Shown here in pieces: positions 3,225 to 64,000 of a DNA stretch of 64,000 nt (position 1 is the first letter of the stretch; each line of letters begins with the position of its first letter). Both the position numbers and the translations under genes were made by a program. The notes beneath the pieces are model-generated. The model was not told where the DNA came from and ran no database searches. It saw only the letters and a list, made by a program, of their open reading frames with translations. The stretch is from Microbacterium sp. Marseille-Q6965 (GTDB lineage: Bacteria > Actinomycetota > Actinomycetes > Actinomycetales > Microbacteriaceae): NCBI RefSeq assembly GCF_946151065.1, contig NZ_CAMGZA010000001.1, forward strand, positions 1,116,001-1,180,000. The letters are read 5' to 3'.

Positions 3225-3286
3225 TCGCGCCGACACCTCTTCCCCCGCTTCAGGCCACGCATCGGCGCGTGCCCTGGCACGAGCAG

Positions 3287-56680: not shown

Positions 56681-58630
56681 ATGCGCGCTCCGTACTTCAT
56701 CGGCGTCGATATCGGAACCAGCAGAACCGCGGCCGCGACCGCACGCCTCGCGCCGGATCGCAGCCTGTTCACCGACGCGTTCTGCCTCGGTCGCAACACC
56801 GACAGCACCCCGACGGCCGTCTATGTCGGCGACGCAGAGCTGCTGTTCGGTGAGCCCGCTGAGCGGCGGGGGGCGGCGGAGCCCGGCCGGCTGATCCGGG
56901 AGTTCAAGAGACGGATCGGCGACGATGTGCCGGTCGTGGCCGGCGACCGGCATCTGTGGCCCGAAGAGCTGTACGCGCACGCGGTCGACGAGGTGATCCG
57001 GACGGTCAGCGAGCGCGAGGGGAGCCACCCCTCCGGCGTCGCGATCACGGTTCCGGCGACGTGGGGTCCGCACCGGACCGAGCTCGTGTCGGCGGCGATC
57101 GCCCGGCGCGGCTGGAGCGATGTGGAGCTGATCACCGAGCCCGAGGCGGCAGCGCGACACTACGAATCCACCCGCCCGCTGGCCGTGGGGCGCGCCCTGG
57201 GGGTGTACGACCTGGGCGGCGGAACGTTCGACGCCGTGGTGCTGCGCAAGGACGACGACGACCGCGTGCGCATCGTCGGTCGCCCCGTGGGCATCGCCGA
57301 GCTGGGCGGCAGCGACTTCGACGACCTCGTGCTGCGTCATGCCCTCCGCACCGCCGGCATCGAAGCCGAAGCGTGGGCGGTCGCGGGCGACCGCGGCCGG
57401 GTCACGCTCGCGTCGCTGCGACGCGAGTGCGTCGAGGCGAAGGAGTCGCTGTCGTTCGACGGCGAGACGGTCATCCCGGTGCTCACCGACGGCAACCTCG
57501 CCACGGTGCGCCTCACCCGGGCCGAGTTCGAGGACATGATCGACGACCGCATCGAGCAGACCGTCGCGGCGTTCGACGAGGCGCTGAGCTCTGCCGGGGT
57601 CGAGGCGAGCGAGCTCGACGCGATCCTGCTGACCGGCGGCTCCTCGCGCATCCCGCGCATCGCGCAGGTGCTGTCCGAGCGCTTCGGCCGTCCGATCGCC
57701 GTCGACGCCGACCCCAAGGCCATCATCGCGCTGGGCGCTGCGCGGGCGATCGCCCAGCGCGCCCAGGTCGGATCCCCGAGCACCGACCTCGCACGAGCCG
57801 CCGGCCTCGGTGCCGTGCTCGAAGCGGACGAGGCGCCAGCATCCGACGACGACGCACCGACCGCGCGCGACGAGAACCGGCCCAGAAGACGAGCCTGGTT
57901 CCGCCGCACCCCGACGATCGCCGCTCTCGGCGCCTGCGCCCTCATCGCCGGCGGCGGTCTGGCCGTCGTGAACGCCTCGGCACTGGGGTTCCGTGGCCAG
58001 GATGCGGCGCGCTCGTCGATCGCGGTGGACGCCGTTCCCCCACTCGCGGGGCTGCTCGCTCCGAGGCCGGCCGATGACGCCGCGGCCGAGACCGCTCCCG
58101 TCGCCGACGCGCCCCCAGCGCGCTCCCCGGACCGCGCGTCGGAGGCCGCAGAGCCGCGTCGAGCCGCCTCACCGCGCGCTCTCCGCCAGGATCGGCCGGA
58201 CTCCCGCCGTTCGGCCCCGGCCGGCTCGAACGCGCCCTCCCGCGGGTCGTCCTCGCTGCAGGACGACGGGCAGAAGCCGCAGCCGTCGACGCCGCCGAAG
58301 GCCACTCCGACGCCGGCTCCGTCGCGGTCCGGTCCCGAGCCGACGCAGCCCGCCGGACCGACGAATCCTCCCGCGCAGCCCGCACCGAGTCCGGTCGAGC
58401 CGGCGCCCAGCGACCCGGCGCCGAGCGACCCGCCTCCCTCCGACCCGCCGGCCGAGCCGGCGCCCACCGGCCTCCCCCGAGCGCCCCGCCGCCGGCGGAG
58501 CCCGAGCCGTCGGCCCCGGTGGAGACTCCACCACCGGCCGATCCGCCGGCTGATCCCCCGGCACCCGTCGAGACCGCACCCGCCGACGTCGCCTGAGGTC
58601 GGACGATGGCTATCCATGCCGAAACCGTGA
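56681..58630 (+). CDS. Membrane-anchored Hsp70/DnaK-like ATPase, probably frameshifted near its 3' end
   Basis: The first 370 or so residues form an Hsp70 nucleotide-binding domain: GVDIGTSRTA (Asp10, Thr13), VYDLGGGTFDAVVL (177-190) and LLTGGSSRIPRI. The usual substrate-binding domain is absent. A short linker, one membrane helix (about residues 409-430, TIAALGACALIAGGGLAVVN) and a long Pro/Ala/Ser/Glu-rich tail follow, which would lie outside the cell. Near 58474-58478 the tail abruptly becomes Arg-rich and the frame overlaps iniR by 25 bp. With one extra C in the run CCCCC the tail stays Pro/Ala/Glu-rich and ends at a TGA at 58594-58596, 9 bp before iniR. So the frame shown is the literal one, but the real gene probably ends at 58596. 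It heads the ini-like locus. Confidence 0.8.
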   Translation: MRAPYFIGVDIGTSRTAAATARLAPDRSLFTDAFCLGRNTDSTPTAVYVGDAELLFGEPAERRGAAEPGRLIREFKRRIGDDVPVVAGDRHLWPEELYAHAVDEVIRTVSEREGSHPSGVAITVPATWGPHRTELVSAAIARRGWSDVELITEPEAAARHYESTRPLAVGRALGVYDLGGGTFDAVVLRKDDDDRVRIVGRPVGIAELGGSDFDDLVLRHALRTAGIEAEAWAVAGDRGRVTLASLRRECVEAKESLSFDGETVIPVLTDGNLATVRLTRAEFEDMIDDRIEQTVAAFDEALSSAGVEASELDAILLTGGSSRIPRIAQVLSERFGRPIAVDADPKAIIALGAARAIAQRAQVGSPSTDLARAAGLGAVLEADEAPASDDDAPTARDENRPRRRAWFRRTPTIAALGACALIAGGGLAVVNASALGFRGQDAARSSIAVDAVPPLAGLLAPRPADDAAAETAPVADAPPARSPDRASEAAEPRRAASPRALRQDRPDSRRSAPAGSNAPSRGSSSLQDDGQKPQPSTPPKATPTPAPSRSGPEPTQPAGPTNPPAQPAPSPVEPAPSDPAPSDPPPSDPPAEPAPTGLPRAPRRRRSPSRRPRWRLHHRPIRRLIPRHPSRPHPPTSPEVGRWLSMPKP

Positions 58631-61128
58631 TCACCTCGAGCTCAGCTGACACCTCGATGATCCTCACGCGCATCGCGCGGGCGCAGATCGAGAACCTCGA
58701 CTCCGACGACGCCCCCGTTCGGCTCGTCGTCGTGGGCACCGCCGGGTCGGGCAAGACCAAGCTGCTGCGGCGCCTCAGCTCGCAGCTGACAGCCCGCGGG
58801 CGGGCCGTCGCGACGGTCACCGACGCCGACGAGATCGCCGGCGCGCCCGCCGACACCGTGCTGCTCCTCGACGACGCCCACCTGACCGGCGCCGACACGC
58901 TGGCGGCCGCCGCGAAGCGCCTCGACGACCCGCGCGCCGAACTGGTGGTCTCGATGCGGCCGTGGCCGCGGCATCCGGTCCTGCAACGCGTCACCGCCGA
59001 GCTGGAAAGGGCGCGTCCCGCGGTCGTGCTCGGAAACCTCTCGCTCGCCGACGTCACCGCTCACTTGGCCGCTGCGGGACGGTCCATCCCCCAGCGGTGC
59101 CTCGACAGCATCCTCGAGGCCACCGGTCACCTGACGTGGCTGGTGTCTCAGGCGCTGGCGGCGCACGACGACGAGCACTGCCCGGGCGACGGACGGCACG
59201 ATGAGATCGCCGAGGCCCTCCGCGAGCTGATCGCGCATCGGCTCGATTCGATCGACCCCGAGCTGCGTGCCGCGGTCGAGGCCGTCTGCCTCGGCAACCC
59301 GAGCGACGCCGACGCCGAGAAGGCGCTCGCGGGGTACGCGCGCGGTCTGCTGCTGCGCGGCGGCCGCCCCGCTCCCCTGCTGCGCGACACCGTGCGTGCG
59401 ACGGTGCCCATCGAGCGACTCGCGCGGCTGTACACCGAGGCCGGCAGCGACGGCGACGGGCGAGTCGGCGAGCTCATCGGACTGATCCGCGACAGCCGCG
59501 TCGCCACCGCCTTACTCATGGACGGCGACCGCACCCTCCCCCGCGATCCGGCGCGTGCCGACGAGCTGTACCGCGGCGCGGGTGAGGCCGGCGCCGATGC
59601 CCGCCTGGTCGCGCTCAAACGCGCGCACGCGGCGTGGGCGCTCGGTCAGATCGACGCCGCCGGAGCTCACATCGACGGCCTCGGCATCGAGCCGGGTGGC
59701 CCCCTCAGCGAGGAAGCCCTCGGGGTGGCGGGAGCGGTGTGGGCCGCGCGCGGCGACATGCGCATGAGCGCAGCGACGCTACGAGCCGACGCGCCGCGCA
59801 GTCCCGAAGCCCTCGCGCGGGCGACGATCGCCGCGGTGGCCGCCGGCGACGCGGCCGCGCTCGATGAGCTGACCCCGTCGTCGACCGTCGCGACGATACC
59901 GACGGCGCTGGTCGTATCGCTGGAGCACCTGGTGCGGGGGCTGCGCACCTCCCTCACCGATCGCGGCCGCGCCTGCCTCGGCGATCTCGTGCGGGCGACC
60001 GAGATGTACACCGCCTCGCGCGCCACCACCGAACTGCCCGAGGTGCCTGCGGTCATCGCCGCCCTCGCCGCCGTCAATCTCGGCGAACTCCGCATCGCGC
60101 AGTCTCTGCTCGACGCCGCCATCCGGGACGGGCACGGCGGTCGGTGGGCGCGCAACCATCTGCTGCTGTGGCGCGCTTGGATCGCCGTGCAGCGCGAGCA
60201 CCCGGACGAGGCCGAGGCTGCGCTCACCCGGTTGGCGGCGTCCGGTCACCCGCTGTGTCCGCGCGATGCCCTGATGGCGGATGCCGTCCGCGTCGCTCTT
60301 GCTCGCCGGTACGCCGACTCTGCAGCGCTCACGGTCGCGTGGCGGCGTGCCCGGGAGGGGATCGTGCGGGCGCAGTTCGATCTGTTCTCGTTCATCCCCC
60401 TGGGGGAGTTCGCCGTCACCGCGGCACGACTCGGAGAGTTCGAGGAGGTCGCCCCCCACCTCGATGACGCCCTCGCCCTCGTGCACCGTCTGGGGGACCC
60501 CGCGGTCTGGGCCCCGACGCTGCACTGGGCCGGTGTACACGCCAACATCCTGGCCAACCGCCCCGATCACCTCGCCCCGCACGCGCGCGCGCTCCTGACC
60601 GCCGCGCATGTGTCCCCCCTCGCCGAGGTGATGGCGCATGCCGGCCGGGTGTGGACCGCGGTGCTCACCGGCAGCCTCGACGCCGACGCGATCGAGCGCG
60701 CGGCCACCGAGCTGGCCGGCGTCGGCCTCGCCTGGGACGGGGCGCGCCTCGCAGGATACGCCGCCAACCGCACCGACGACCGGCGCGTCAGCGCACGACT
60801 GCTCGCGTGCGCCCGGCAGCTGCACCCAAGGAGCAAGCCCGCCGGGAGCACGGAGCCCGACGCCCCGACGAACGAGCAGCCGCGCGACGAGGGAGTGCTC
60901 AGTATCCGGGAACGCGAGGTCGCGCGCCTCGTGCTCGAGGGCAAGACCTACGCCGAGATCGGGGCGTCGATCTTCATTTCGCCCCGCACCGCAGAGCACC
61001 ACATCGCCCGCATTCGACGGCGCCTGGGGGCCACCTCGCGCTCCGATCTGATCGCGAAGCTGCGGCTCGCGCTGGACGGCTCCGATGCGCACGATCAGGG
61101 TCCGCAGAACCGCCTGGAGTCGGCGTGA
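58606..61128 (+). CDS. iniR: IniR-type STAND ATPase/LuxR transcriptional regulator
   Basis: This 840-residue regulator has an N-terminal P-loop (GTAGSGKT, residues 44-51) and Walker B VLLLDDAH. A helical middle region resembles the MalT/LAL group, with TPR-like Ala/Leu pairs, and a C-terminal LuxR-type helix-turn-helix begins about residue 765 (REREVARLVLEGKTYAEIG, SPRTAEHHIARIRRRLGA). The architecture and neighbourhood (iniB-like gene next, iniC-like gene near) match mycobacterial IniR, reported as activator of the isoniazid-inducible iniBAC operon. The ATG has GAGGTCGG just before it. Its likely target is the iniB promoter downstream. Confidence 0.87.
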   Translation: MAIHAETVITSSSADTSMILTRIARAQIENLDSDDAPVRLVVVGTAGSGKTKLLRRLSSQLTARGRAVATVTDADEIAGAPADTVLLLDDAHLTGADTLAAAAKRLDDPRAELVVSMRPWPRHPVLQRVTAELERARPAVVLGNLSLADVTAHLAAAGRSIPQRCLDSILEATGHLTWLVSQALAAHDDEHCPGDGRHDEIAEALRELIAHRLDSIDPELRAAVEAVCLGNPSDADAEKALAGYARGLLLRGGRPAPLLRDTVRATVPIERLARLYTEAGSDGDGRVGELIGLIRDSRVATALLMDGDRTLPRDPARADELYRGAGEAGADARLVALKRAHAAWALGQIDAAGAHIDGLGIEPGGPLSEEALGVAGAVWAARGDMRMSAATLRADAPRSPEALARATIAAVAAGDAAALDELTPSSTVATIPTALVVSLEHLVRGLRTSLTDRGRACLGDLVRATEMYTASRATTELPEVPAVIAALAAVNLGELRIAQSLLDAAIRDGHGGRWARNHLLLWRAWIAVQREHPDEAEAALTRLAASGHPLCPRDALMADAVRVALARRYADSAALTVAWRRAREGIVRAQFDLFSFIPLGEFAVTAARLGEFEEVAPHLDDALALVHRLGDPAVWAPTLHWAGVHANILANRPDHLAPHARALLTAAHVSPLAEVMAHAGRVWTAVLTGSLDADAIERAATELAGVGLAWDGARLAGYAANRTDDRRVSARLLACARQLHPRSKPAGSTEPDAPTNEQPRDEGVLSIREREVARLVLEGKTYAEIGASIFISPRTAEHHIARIRRRLGATSRSDLIAKLRLALDGSDAHDQGPQNRLESA

Positions 61129-61145
61129 ACAGCCGCGTCTACCGG

Positions 61146-61193
61146 TGTGGGGGCACCCCCTATTGCCTCTCCCCTGATGTGGGGCTCCCCCCC
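61146..61193 (+). promoter_or_regulatory. Two imperfect G/C-tract repeats in the iniB promoter region
   Basis: TGTGGGGGCACCCCC and TGTGGGGCTCCCC recur with starts 32 bp apart, about three helical turns. Each forms an inverted G-tract/C-tract hairpin. They lie upstream of a TACCGT (possible -10, at about 61219) and no -35 is visible, the layout expected for an activator-dependent promoter. IniR is the candidate activator. Confidence 0.4.
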
Positions 61194-61250
61194 GACGCGG
61201 GCGGGCACCGCCGAGCCCTACCGTAAGACATCGACCGTGAGGAGCCGACC

Positions 61251-62009
61251 ATGAGCGTAACGCTGGCCACGATGGCTGACGCGCTGATCGAATTCATTCT
61301 GAGTCTGCTGCGGGACCCGACCGCCGCCGCCGAGTTCGAGGAAGACCCGCAGGGCACGCTCGCCGCGCGCGGGCTGAACAACGCAAGCCCCGCCGATGTG
61401 TGCGCGGTCGCGCCGGTCATCGCCGAGCGCCCCGCCGTCGTCGCGGTGCACCACGACCACGACCACGGCGTGGCGCCGAAGCCCGCGCCCAAGCCGGCAC
61501 CCGAGCCCGACCCCGACCCGGTCGTGCGCGAGGTGAAGAACATCATGCAGAACTTCTCCTGGGTCGACGACCGCGACACCGTGGTCGATCAGTCGGTGAA
61601 CCAGAACATCTGGGCCGACGGCGACGTCACCCAGGTGTTCGATCAGGAGGCCGTGGTCGCCTCGGGCGACGAGTCGATGGCTGCCGGCGACGATGCCACG
61701 GTCGACAACACGGTGGATCAGTCCACGAACATCGACGCCGGAGGCGACGTGAACGTGGGCAACGACACCGAGGTGGTCGCGGTCGACGACTCGTACAACG
61801 AAGACACCGACACGTCGACCGAGACCGACAACTCCACCGACGTGGTCGTCGACGACTCGGCGAACGACAGTTCGACGACCGAGACCGCCGAGGACTCCTA
61901 CAACGACTCCACCGTCGAGTACACCGAGACCGACGTCGACTCCAGCGCGACGTTCGAGACCACTGAAGAACCGCTCGCCGACGCCACCGCCGCGGATGAC
62001 GACATCTGA
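61251..62009 (+). CDS. iniB: IniB-like protein, acidic low-complexity
   Basis: The 252-residue protein has an N-terminal IniB-type domain (about residues 1-62, ADALIEFILSLLRDPTAAAE then GTLAARGLNNASPADV). A His/Asp stretch (HHDHDHG) and a Pro/Lys/Glu hinge follow. The rest is a strongly acidic, Asp/Thr/Asn/Val-rich tail with repeating GDV, GDD and Val-Asp-Asn units (NIWADGDVTQVFDQ, NIDAGGDVNVGNDTEVV). No Cys occurs beyond Cys51 in the N-terminal domain, and there is no signal peptide. In mycobacteria IniB is a cell-envelope protein of unknown action. GAGGAG lies 8 bp before the ATG. The next gene overlaps its 3' end by 14 bp. Confidence 0.78.
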   Translation: MSVTLATMADALIEFILSLLRDPTAAAEFEEDPQGTLAARGLNNASPADVCAVAPVIAERPAVVAVHHDHDHGVAPKPAPKPAPEPDPDPVVREVKNIMQNFSWVDDRDTVVDQSVNQNIWADGDVTQVFDQEAVVASGDESMAAGDDATVDNTVDQSTNIDAGGDVNVGNDTEVVAVDDSYNEDTDTSTETDNSTDVVVDDSANDSSTTETAEDSYNDSTVEYTETDVDSSATFETTEEPLADATAADDDI

Positions 62010-62652
62010 GGTGGAGGGTCGCCCTCCTGAGCCCGAACCCCGACGCGACGGTCGGGGTTCGGTGCCGGGAAGAGACCGGGACGGACGCGCGGCCCCTGCG
62101 CGTCCGCCCCTCTCCGGCAAGAGCTCGGCACCCGTCCTCGTGAATCTGCCGCCGCCGATCTCCGTGCGGCTGTCGGAGACGGCGTGGATCCTGTCGCTCG
62201 TTCTCGGCGCCGTCGCGGTGGTGTACCTCTTCATCATCCGGCAGGACGTGCAGCCGTCGATCATCGAGATGGCGAAGACCGTGGACGACTCGCGCGCGGA
62301 GGAGACCTACACCTCGGTCGCCGACATCCTCTATTGGTCGGTGTTCGGCGCCCTGGTCGCCGTGCTCCTGGTGCAGGTGACTCTGCTGGTGTCGTTCGCC
62401 AATCGGCGCCTGAAGGCGCGGTGGGGGCTGTTCGGCACGCTGCTGTTCCAGGCGATCCTCTTCCTGCTCGCCCGCGAGTTCGTGGTGCGGGGCGACAGCG
62501 CGCTGCCGCTGGAGAACATCCTGCTGATCCAGCTCGGTCTCGCCGCGCTGGGACTGCTGTTCTCGCTCCTACCGGGCGCCCTGCGCTGGACCGCTCGTCA
62601 GCACGACGTCCGCCCCCGCGGCGCCGTCGACGGAAGCGGATCCGACTTCTGA
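61996..62652 (+). CDS. Four-helix membrane protein of the ini-like locus, unknown function
   Basis: The 218-residue protein has a polar N-terminus (Pro/Arg/Glu-rich, about 55 residues) and four hydrophobic segments: about 62-82, 111-133, 141-160 and 173-193 (AWILSLVLGAVAVVYLFII, YWSVFGALVAVLLVQVTLL, WGLFGTLLFQAILFLLA, LLIQLGLAALGLLFSLLPG). I do not recognise a family. Its ATG lies within the iniB 3' end, 14 bp of overlap; a GTG 15 bp later is an alternative start. Its 3' end overlaps the convergent IniC-like gene by 84 bp. Position suggests a membrane partner of the Hsp70 or the dynamin-like GTPase. Confidence 0.68.
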   Translation: MTTSEVEGRPPEPEPRRDGRGSVPGRDRDGRAAPARPPLSGKSSAPVLVNLPPPISVRLSETAWILSLVLGAVAVVYLFIIRQDVQPSIIEMAKTVDDSRAEETYTSVADILYWSVFGALVAVLLVQVTLLVSFANRRLKARWGLFGTLLFQAILFLLAREFVVRGDSALPLENILLIQLGLAALGLLFSLLPGALRWTARQHDVRPRGAVDGSGSDF

Positions 62653-64000
62653 CGCCATTCCCTCGACGCTGCGCACCACCAGTCGGCACAGCCCCACCGT
62701 CTGGCGGTCGCTCAGCGGCGACTCGGCGAGCGCCCGCCAGTGCGTCAGCATGGCGGCGATCACCGCACGCTGCTCGTCACGACCCGCGGCGGGGTGCAGG
62801 CCGAGGCGCACCGGCAGGGCGGTGCCGGCGCCACCGATCAGCCGTTCGGCGAGAGCGAGGTCATCGGCGCTGACCCGCGGCGGGCGGGTGCGCAGCTCGG
62901 CCAACAGCGACAGCTCCCGCAGGTCGTGGCTGCGCGAGGTGAGCCGCTCGATCGCGCCTCGCACGTCGTCGGTGCCGGCGCGCGGGATGTCGTCGAGCAG
63001 CGCCTGCACACCCTGCAGCACCGCGCGCGCCTTCAATGCGACCGCTCGAGCGCGGAACTGTTCGGCGACGAACCGCTGCAGCGGCACGAGACCGCTCTGC
63101 TCGACCATGCGCTGGGCGAGCTCTGATGAGGTGCGGGCACCGCCACGGATGAGAGCGGCGCCCAGGCGGAGCCCGAAGAGACCGAAGCGCGCCAGCAGGG
63201 CGCGGCGCACCGAGACGCTGAGGCTCGTGTCGTTCGTGGCTCGGGTGAAGCGGTCGGCCGATACGAGCAGCCTGTCGCGCGCTCGACGCTCGAGCCCCGC
63301 GAGCTCGCGCAGGGCGATGAACTCGCTCTCGCGCAAGGTGCGTCCGGCCTCGGCGAGCAGGCCGGCGAGAGGGATGACGTCGAGAGCGAGCGCCCGCAGC
63401 TCTCCGTCGCGCTTGTAGCGCTCGGCGATCTTCGCCGCTGACAGCAGGGAGTCGATGCGGCCCGACCCGATCTCATCCGCGCGTGACAGCACGGCGACGG
63501 CGTTGACGGTCTCCGAGGCTCCCGCGGCGGTGTCGCGGAAAGCCTCGAGGAATCGCACGTCCTCGGCGTGGACGTGGCGCAGCAGGTAGATGATCGCGTC
63601 GGCCGCGGACGGCGTGCGTTCCGGCAGCAGGAAGTCGGTGGAGCGGGCGGAGTTCGCCTCGGTGAGCGAGGCGATGCCGGGGGTGTCGATGAGCACGGTG
63701 GAACGAAGGCTTTCGGAGGGCCACGTCACCTCGATGCGCGCGACATCTTCGGCGCGATAGCCGCCCATGTCGAGCACGAGGCGGCCCGACTCGCGCCGCA
63801 CGGGTTGGTCGACCTGCTCACCGCCGTGCAGGTGGAAGGTCACGCTCGCACGCGGCGCGTGGCGGTACCACGTCACGACCCGCGTGCACTCCCCCGCGTC
63901 GGTCGGGGCGATCCGCTCCCCGATCAGAGCATTGAGCAGTGTCGACTTGCCCGCCTTCACGATGCCCGCCACGGCGAGGCGAAGCGGTTCGCGCAGCCGT
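62569..64000 (-). CDS. iniC: IniC-like dynamin-family GTPase, N-terminus beyond window
   Basis: The visible 476 residues and stop belong to a bacterial dynamin-like protein. The G1 P-loop GIVKAGKSTLLNALIG, the G3 DTPGIA and the G4-like SRADEI are seen, and APTDAGECTRVVTWYR matches the IniC/IniA group. Nine in-frame codons before the first possible start (GTG) show that the gene continues past the window edge. Dynamin-like proteins deform membranes using GTP. IniA of mycobacteria fissions membranes in vitro. The C-terminal half is helical, as expected for the bundle. It is convergent with the membrane protein gene, and IniA might be next upstream, outside the window. Confidence 0.87.
   Translation of the reverse strand, partial: RLREPLRLAVAGIVKAGKSTLLNALIGERIAPTDAGECTRVVTWYRHAPRASVTFHLHGGEQVDQPVRRESGRLVLDMGGYRAEDVARIEVTWPSESLRSTVLIDTPGIASLTEANSARSTDFLLPERTPSAADAIIYLLRHVHAEDVRFLEAFRDTAAGASETVNAVAVLSRADEIGSGRIDSLLSAAKIAERYKRDGELRALALDVIPLAGLLAEAGRTLRESEFIALRELAGLERRARDRLLVSADRFTRATNDTSLSVSVRRALLARFGLFGLRLGAALIRGGARTSSELAQRMVEQSGLVPLQRFVAEQFRARAVALKARAVLQGVQALLDDIPRAGTDDVRGAIERLTSRSHDLRELSLLAELRTRPPRVSADDLALAERLIGGAGTALPVRLGLHPAAGRDEQRAVIAAMLTHWRALAESPLSDRQTVGLCRLVVRSVEGMASEVGSASVDGAAGADVVLTSGPAQGAR

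Follow-up and report, generated by a model that had tools for sequence, protein, structure and literature searches.

The right-hand end of the window, a stretch of 64,000 nucleotides from the 2.85 Mb genome of Microbacterium sp. Marseille-Q6965 (contig NZ_CAMGZA010000001.1, positions 1,116,001 to 1,180,000), holds a cluster of genes for an Hsp70-type ATPase, an IniR-like regulator, an IniB-like protein, a four-helix membrane protein and dynamin-like GTPases. The cluster extends past the window end to ~67971 and comprises eight genes over ~11.3 kb, about two thirds of which falls inside the window. The genes form two convergent four-gene operons, a term that we apply from gene layout alone: hsp70, iniR, iniB and the four-helix gene on the plus strand face two repeat-protein genes, iniA and iniC on the minus strand (repeat2-repeat1-iniA-iniC). 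The four-helix and iniC genes overlap tail to tail, and iniA and iniC overlap by a few bases. The rest of iniC, the IniA-type dynamin and the two Asn/Ser/Asp-rich repeat proteins, all on the minus strand, lie beyond the window. The features, in window coordinates, are:

56681..58630, plus strand: Hsp70-type ATPase domain, membrane helix and Pro/Ala/Ser-rich tail (Pfam HSP70, 134.4 bits)
57914..57970, plus strand: membrane helix of the Hsp70 predicted by hydropathy, residues 412-430, with WFRR just before it
58606..61128, plus strand: IniR-like STAND ATPase and LuxR-type regulator (NF038181, 378.4 bits; GerE, 49.5 bits)
61251..62009, plus strand: IniB-like protein, helical N-terminal domain and acidic repeat tail (NF038175, IniB_NTERM, 71.8 bits, cut-off 40)
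61503..61700, plus strand: DQSVN block of IniB, found by a block profile and common to both repeat proteins
61996..62652, plus strand: four-helix membrane protein, four hydrophobic segments
62569..64000 in the window, start at 64101, minus strand: IniC-type dynamin GTPase (Dynamin_N), 3ʹ end overlapping the four-helix gene
64098..65993, minus strand: IniA-type dynamin (441 bits to Mycobacterium smegmatis IniA, PDB 6j72, over 31-622)
66146..66997, minus strand: repeat protein, Asn/Ser/Asp/Thr-rich, fetched beyond the window
67087..67971, minus strand: repeat protein, Asn/Ser/Asp/Thr-rich, fetched beyond the window

Judged by its sequence, this eight-gene cluster is an ini-type locus, a variant of the mycobacterial ini system. 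The initial annotation, made from the window, had proposed an Ini-like locus with an Hsp70, an IniR-type regulator, an IniB-like protein, a four-helix protein and a dynamin GTPase. All five were recovered by Pfam, NCBIfam and hydropathy, and the ini assignment is borne out by an IniB_NTERM match above cut-off, an IniA-type dynamin, an IniR-like regulator and a dynamin pair. The convergent IniC-like dynamin that it described is present on the minus strand, with a Dynamin_N match of 47.4 bits for the in-window part and 47.2 bits for the whole GTPase; it runs off the window, however, and the locus is longer than had been described. We class this second dynamin as putatively IniC-type from the Dynamin_N match and its place beside iniA; no curated IniC model appeared among the matches. 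The nearest solved relative of the IniA-type protein is mycobacterial IniA. The NCBIfam IniR match has an E value of 8e-113 yet falls under the equivalog cut-off of 750 bits, hence our use of the name “IniR-like”. Rfam at its gathering threshold gave no match in the fetched stretch covering the locus.

The IniB-like protein is 23% acidic and 3% basic in composition, and its named relatives are chiefly Microbacterium proteins. An AlphaFold model has a predicted local distance difference test (pLDDT) score of 90-95 at residues 11-60, which are helical, with a further helix at 90-101; the mean is 62 overall and 53 or less beyond residue 110, and the acidic tail is not modelled confidently. A Foldseek comparison of this model with the PDB gave no match under E 5.7. 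The helical domain (61251-61430) has a faint, non-significant likeness to 8tb1, a proteusin precursor of a ribosomally synthesized and post-translationally modified peptide (root-mean-square deviation 1.3 over 34 columns, E 8.5). Both repeat proteins lack this helical domain and share with IniB a block centred on RDTVVDQSVNQNI...AVVASGD..AAGDD. The block profile scores 63.3 bits in one repeat protein and 55.7 bits in the other, with shuffled sequences reaching at most 9.2. It also finds the block in four of 13 distant proteins at the IniB position, all in families f29 and f52 (16-43 bits; their shuffles at most 6.2), while the other nine (all of f19, all of f42, and L179 of f52) score within a bit or two of their shuffles. 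Relatives of the repeat proteins carry only forms of “hypothetical protein” as source names and no precomputed Pfam domain, IniB proteins lower in the list excepted. For the four-helix protein, no Pfam or NCBIfam family scored over its cut-off.

The locus recurs within the genus. We searched 366 genomes with IniB and with the part of the Hsp70 up to the membrane helix (E 1e-45), and found IniB in 95 (two only at E 5e-4) and the Hsp70 in 90. Conserved co-occurrence of the Hsp70 with iniB and iniC in related genomes, on which the initial annotation had staked its claim, was indeed found: 86 genomes have both, nine have IniB only, four have the Hsp70 only and 267 have neither (Fisher p 1e-67, ignoring relatedness), and the dynamin pair is present at 47/47 mapped loci. 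Among the 13 discordant genomes, four IniB-only ones (G472, G681, G579 and G656) nevertheless contain the Hsp70, either incomplete or scoring below threshold; two (G514 and G697) are cut by contig ends, as is the Hsp70-only genome G627; and three (G588, G738 and G743) were left out of the follow-up. The other Hsp70-only genomes (G670, G732 and G754) carry a different Hsp70 (34-35% identity), and their fetched stretches contain no ini gene. In one of the three stretches with this other Hsp70 (L136, alongside L135 and L137), a membrane helix can be seen by eye, near two-component-like genes and a gene for a large AAA protein.

For mapping, we took stretches of up to 20 kb surrounding IniB from 47 of the 95 IniB-positive genomes, chiefly those ranked highest among the matches. 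Genes for Hsp70, the IniR-like regulator, IniB and the four-helix protein occur in 47/47, and in 46 IniC and IniA lie within the stretch, with the order and strands of hsp70, iniR, iniB, the four-helix gene, iniC and iniA identical. At the 47th locus (G587), IniC, IniA and the repeat genes lie ~12 kb further on, past an insert that splits the two convergent operons; by eye, this insert (L082, 10700-20000; L146) holds phosphonate-transport-like and phosphatase-like genes. At least one Asn/Ser/Asp/Thr-rich repeat gene precedes iniA in all 46 loci, and the second repeat gene is variable. Two loci labelled Propionibacteriaceae or Propionibacterium (L013 and L014) have the same order as far as the contig allows. 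Since order and strands are kept in the genus loci and the genes co-occur, the gene set is not a chance grouping.

The site is conserved too. Next to the Hsp70 end of the locus are an EamA-type transporter and groES; beyond its other end is a THUMP-type methyltransferase. At least one flank gene was found in 46/47 genus loci (the exception is L089). groES is on the Hsp70 side in 40/47, on the methyltransferase side in five (L110, L113, L114, L117 and L119) and not seen in two (L089 and L120). The ini block thus lies on either side of groES in different genomes; L138 likewise has groES on the methyltransferase side. Among 25 of the 271 IniB-negative genomes, which were searched for the flanks, 24 have the methyltransferase, with groES within the 1.5 kb flank in 23 of these. 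Since non-carriers have the same flanks with an empty site, the locus is an accessory block, present or absent at one chromosomal place.

In the Hsp70, the Pfam HSP70 match is restricted to profile positions 2-369 of 599, the nucleotide-binding half; positions 370-599, the substrate-binding domain, were unmatched in the same search, and the membrane helix and tail lie there instead. This agrees with the initial annotation, which had described a membrane-anchored Hsp70 without a substrate-binding domain. The catalytic residues are present, by eye, in the window protein. We counted these residues, with columns assigned to DnaK residues, in an alignment to the genome's own DnaK that comprised 51 genus-type copies (47 genus loci, the window genome, L012, L013 and L016); L012 seems to duplicate the contig of L093, and both are inside the count. 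The first Asp, the phosphate-2 Asp and the adenosine-site Gly pair are each present in 51/51, and four copies from f29 and f52 retain all the residues scored. A membrane helix is predicted in 45/48 genus copies. After the helix comes a tail of 54-347 residues, mostly rich in Pro, Thr, Ala and Ser. With the ATPase domain on one side of the predicted helix and a flexible tail on the other, a wall-sensing role is plausible. J-domain and GrpE models had no match among the eight locus proteins.

At its 3ʹ end, the window copy departs from this pattern. The last ~50 codons of the hsp70 frame (58380-58630) are Arg-rich; an alternative frame reads as the Pro-rich tail of relatives and stops just short of the iniR start. 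Hence, a frameshift here, real or from sequencing, is likely, and the 25-base overlap of hsp70 and iniR may be an artefact.

Is the Hsp70 part of the ini system beyond this genus? We searched a phylum sample of 396 genomes, including the window genome, for IniA (threshold E 1e-60) and read the neighbourhoods of all 22 matching places, which fall in 19 genomes. An Hsp70-profile gene lies in the fetched stretch near all 20 IniA-IniC pairs (G313 counted over two contigs; two of the pairs are in the genus), and a membrane helix is predicted in one or more of these genes at 19/20 (the exception is G378). The profile was built from the genus copies together with copies from nine outside loci that it then scored, these having been found first by the window protein alone. 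For scale, the window genome has two Hsp70-family genes in 2.85 Mb, which corresponds to a chance of ~1.4% per random 20 kb stretch of it. The two remaining places (G086 and G270:C33) have a lone IniA, each with an in-frame TGA and no Hsp70-profile gene; the G086 contig ends 2.7 kb after iniA. These lone iniA genes (L185 and L186), with no iniC in the fetched stretch, are perhaps decaying copies. Because all 20 IniA-IniC pairs of the phylum sample have a related Hsp70 nearby, the Hsp70 looks like a core part of the ini system.

As IniB_NTERM is known from the mycobacterial family, we assume that f19 is that family. The f19 loci have Hsp70-type genes with a predicted membrane helix beside iniR and iniB, and a “dnaK-like” gene beside M. 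smegmatis iniR is mentioned in one sentence of Boot et al. 2017 (PMC5760070). The initial annotation had taken both the transmembrane Hsp70 and the second membrane protein to be foreign to the mycobacterial locus. For the Hsp70, this does not hold; the four-helix protein did stay under 40 bits in every ini locus scored outside the genus. Three f19 loci (L125, L127 and L182) have two Hsp70-type genes each, both with a membrane helix. The helix-bearing f19 copies aligned (L123, L125, L127, L133 and L151) look like pseudo-ATPases. The matches without a helix in L151, L177 and L182 could be ordinary DnaK. In L122 and L124, IniB N-terminal domains start very long frames (>900 codons); neither IniA nor IniC was matched in the fetched stretch.

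The two operons of the locus share a candidate regulatory element. We fitted palindromic motif models to 200-base regions upstream of iniB (50 regions), the repeat-iniA-iniC operon (49) and hsp70 (50), drawn from the 47 genus loci, the window genome, L013 and L016. In many relatives, the regions before iniB and before the repeat-iniA-iniC operon both contain a dyad, ATCGGGGN4CCCCGAT: models trained separately on the two sets gave near-identical dyads, aTCGGGGntanCCCCGAt and atCGGGGanntCCCCGat, with log-likelihoods of 342 against 26 for shuffled sequences (iniB) and 180 against 32 (repeat operon). The hsp70 upstream regions gave a different, weaker dyad (70 against 28). Against the 99th percentile of 1981 controls (random 200-base windows of the same loci), the iniB-trained model scores higher in 17/49 repeat-operon and 0/50 hsp70 upstream regions, and the repeat-trained model in 30/50 iniB and 0/50 hsp70 upstream regions; the sequences are related and the figures are therefore descriptive. 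The best iniB site begins 77-82 bases before the start codon in 28/50. A scan of 985 kb of loci placed 60 of 92 hits in the two upstream regions, covering 36/50 loci for iniB and 22/49 for the repeat operon; the remaining 32 lie elsewhere, some directly before iniB and outside the region as set. A rule fixed the repeat-operon starts, apparently wrongly in some loci (e.g. L093-L095), and some iniB frames were set too early; in each case the counts are lowered. In a whole-genome search for TCGGGGNNNNCCCCGAT, five of the six distinct exact sites among the matches listed (four of ten genomes) are at ini promoters, in G472, G487 (twice), G515 and G561; one further exact site lies elsewhere in G561. 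The window genome has two copies:

61177..61196: degenerate dyad copy starting 74 bases before the iniB start, identified by eye and not picked by the motif models
68018..68035: degenerate dyad copy beyond the window, upstream of the repeat-iniA-iniC operon

In loci from outside the genus, the highest-scoring site is upstream of hsp70 or iniA in 6/17, where 1.0 is expected (simulated P 3e-4; these upstream regions were chosen after the genus result, and an iniB start was recognised in only one of the 17 loci). All six are among the seven loci of f29 and f52. One f19 locus (L125) has a site, 86 bases ahead of an iniB frame, that was left out of the count. One 20 kb ini locus of f42 (L187) has three near-perfect genus dyads (at 3258, 5233 and 11691; 19.6-20.9 bits), one of them ~630 bases upstream of the iniA frame start. 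Since the shared dyad precedes both units in many relatives, joint switching of iniB and the repeat-iniA-iniC operon is likely, with the IniR-like protein as the probable regulator.

What might such a locus do? We propose that the IniR-like regulator switches it on and that it acts as a machine for envelope repair, a proposal that we regard as having about an even chance of being correct; sensing, repair and every mechanistic step in this genus are inferred. The hsp70-iniR pair, whose upstream region is without the dyad in the genus, would be made beforehand. Envelope damage would activate the IniR-like ATPase, by analogy with the trehalose or ATP level for mycobacterial iniBAC: IniR is reported to bind upstream of iniBAC, which trehalose induces (PMC5760070), and iniBAC induction is reported to follow the ATP level (PMC6104191). 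The IniR-like protein would then bind the dyad and raise expression of iniB and the repeat-iniA-iniC operon jointly. IniB and the repeat proteins would form an abundant cytoplasmic scaffold; RNA-seq in mycobacteria is reported to point to an excess of IniB (PMC5760070). The membrane Hsp70 would keep its ATPase domain inside the cell and extend its Pro/Thr-rich tail into the wall; it could mark or gate the site and load the scaffold, and the four-helix protein could help to dock the GTPases. IniA with IniC would cut or seal the damaged membrane, a step that we propose because purified M. smegmatis IniA is reported to cut membrane tubes with GTP (PMC6715688). In support of the ini proteins as a unit, IniA, IniC, IniB, IniR and the membrane protein co-vary more closely among themselves (Spearman 0.62-0.88) than with the flanking genes (0.26-0.42).

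Several observations weigh against this proposal. Co-variation of the Hsp70 with the ini proteins (0.43-0.71) is no better than with the flanking genes (0.53-0.64); since this mirror-tree comparison did not single out the Hsp70, its tie to the system rests on neighbourhood and co-occurrence. Genus-type Hsp70s keep the catalytic Lys in 37/51, the Glu in 38/51 and the Thr in 39/51, and three of 48 genus copies have no predicted membrane helix. The f19 Hsp70s that have a membrane helix, seven of the eight aligned, are without three of the residues (first Asp, Lys and Thr). The remaining f19 copy, from L151, has no helix; it retains these residues and may be an ordinary DnaK. Hence, neither ATP hydrolysis nor anchoring can be essential everywhere. 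The repeat proteins raise further doubt. By our composition rule, there are two repeat genes in 13/46 loci and one in 33/46, with tblastn revealing a second in some of the 33, and an AlphaFold model of a repeat protein is unconfident (mean pLDDT 41), so that the scaffold role is a guess. As for the dyad, the scan has no hit in 14/50 iniB and 27/49 repeat-operon regions, a few of these through misplaced regions. Up to one mismatch, there are 28-51 matches per genome on both strands (in the four genomes listed), both dyads of the window's own genome are degenerate, and no top dyad falls in the upstream regions of the seven f19 loci. Microbacteria are not known to have mycolate envelopes, and the mycobacterial stress signal may therefore not carry over. 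M. smegmatis is reported to be without iniB (PMC5760070). The IniB scaffold therefore cannot be essential everywhere.

A different function for the whole locus would also account for some of our data. It could be a membrane-remodelling or vesicle-forming device of ordinary growth rather than of stress repair, with the Hsp70 as a structural anchor and not a sensor. The same flanks in 46/47 loci and the presence of the locus in about a quarter of the genus fit an accessory physiological trait, IniA cuts membranes in vitro (PMC6715688), and Boot et al. raise vesiculation in their discussion (PMC5760070). We give this explanation a small chance of being right, given that the IniR-like regulator is present in 47/47 genus loci and that its mycobacterial relative is reported to answer cell-wall drugs (PMC5760070). 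The possibility that the locus is an anti-phage or abortive defence system, with the IniR-like STAND ATPase as sensor and the dynamins as membrane effectors, appears to us very unlikely. Its presence is patchy (95/366 genus genomes), two dynamin models of PADLOC hit the IniA-type protein, LeoBC at 65.4 bits and LeoA at 50.7 bits, and a dynamin-like protein is reported to protect Bacillus from phage (PMC8844932). However, no other PADLOC model scored above 19 bits among the eight locus proteins, the flanks lying outside the scan; the closest solved relative of the IniA-type protein is mycobacterial IniA; and the locus occupies a fixed site by the transporter, groES and the methyltransferase, which is empty in non-carriers. 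We set an anti-phage identity aside as the system-specific PADLOC partners were not found among the eight locus proteins, the LeoA and LeoBC dynamin models being the only ones above 19 bits.

Two further alternatives concern single components. The Hsp70 could be a mere positional neighbour beside groES with a role of its own, the ini genes working without it. groES lies on the Hsp70 side in 40/47 genus loci, as this would have it, and the distance pattern of the Hsp70 tracks that of the flanking genes no less than that of the ini genes. On the other hand, the Hsp70 accompanies IniA-IniC outside the genus, where the genus flanks were not found (all 20 phylum-sample places, two of them in the genus), it is without a substrate-binding domain, and the best dyad is upstream of an hsp70 or iniA start in 6/7 f29 and f52 loci; we therefore consider this alternative improbable. 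The GC-rich dyad, for its part, could be an RNA hairpin, a terminator or leader structure, rather than a binding site for a regulator. A seven-pair stem with a four-base loop is possible, and the distance of the iniB sites from the start codon, 77-82 bases in 28/50, could fall inside a leader. Yet in the window genome the repeat-iniA-iniC operon is divergent from the upstream gene, leaving no gene end there to terminate, and the exact dyads are nearly confined to the two ini promoters (5/6, among the matches listed). We consider a hairpin unlikely, and retain the reading of the dyad as a putative regulator binding site in an envelope-repair locus.

How does the Microbacterium locus compare with known systems? 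It shares with mycobacterial iniBAC and IniR (Rv0339c; PMC5760070, PMC6715688) the IniA-type and IniC-type dynamins, the IniB N-terminal domain and an IniR-like regulator beside iniB. In contrast to the mycobacterial arrangement, iniA-iniC is on the opposite strand behind two IniB-related repeat proteins, rather than in one iniBAC operon; iniB is followed by the gene for a four-helix protein; the first gene of the operon encodes a membrane Hsp70; and the regulator is below the IniR equivalog cut-off. The Hsp70-type gene adjoining iniR recalls the M. smegmatis dnaK-like gene, known from its one-sentence mention in PMC5760070, but the f19 copies have mostly lost the catalytic residues whereas the genus copies have mostly kept them. 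As in DnaK and other Hsp70 chaperones, the nucleotide-binding domain has phosphate and adenosine motifs; unlike DnaK, the protein has a membrane helix and a Pro/Thr-rich tail instead of a substrate-binding domain, and no J-domain or GrpE partner in the locus. Adjacent pairs of dynamin genes are also described in other bacteria, the Campylobacter pair (PMC6104087) being one example, but in Microbacterium the pair is joined to Hsp70, IniR-like and IniB-type proteins. Apart from the one sentence in PMC5760070, our searches of titles and abstract openings in open-licence PMC brought up no paper on a membrane Hsp70 as part of an ini locus. As far as these searches reach, four things are new: the helix-bearing Hsp70 as a regular IniA-IniC partner, the repeat proteins that have a block in common with IniB, the four-helix protein, and the dyad shared by the two upstream regions.

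A bolder scheme, which we offer as a long shot, is that ini is an Actinomycetota-wide machine of coat, Hsp70 and dynamin. IniB and DQSVN-block proteins would be the coat on damaged membrane, a damage-sensing, wall-probing single-pass Hsp70 would drive coat assembly or release by its ATPase cycle, and IniA-IniC would cut the membrane. The logic, not the descent, would be like that of coat, Hsc70 and dynamin in endocytosis, and mycobacterial iniBAC would be a trimmed remnant.

The function of IniB and the sensor of wall damage in the ini response are described as open questions (PMC5760070, PMC6104191). If it is true that a membrane Hsp70 with a tail in the wall is a core part of the ini system, this Hsp70 is a candidate for the missing sensor or gate. 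The Microbacterium locus provides a non-mycobacterial setting for dissecting the Hsp70, the IniB-type repeats and the dynamin pair, and the dyad provides a concrete binding target.

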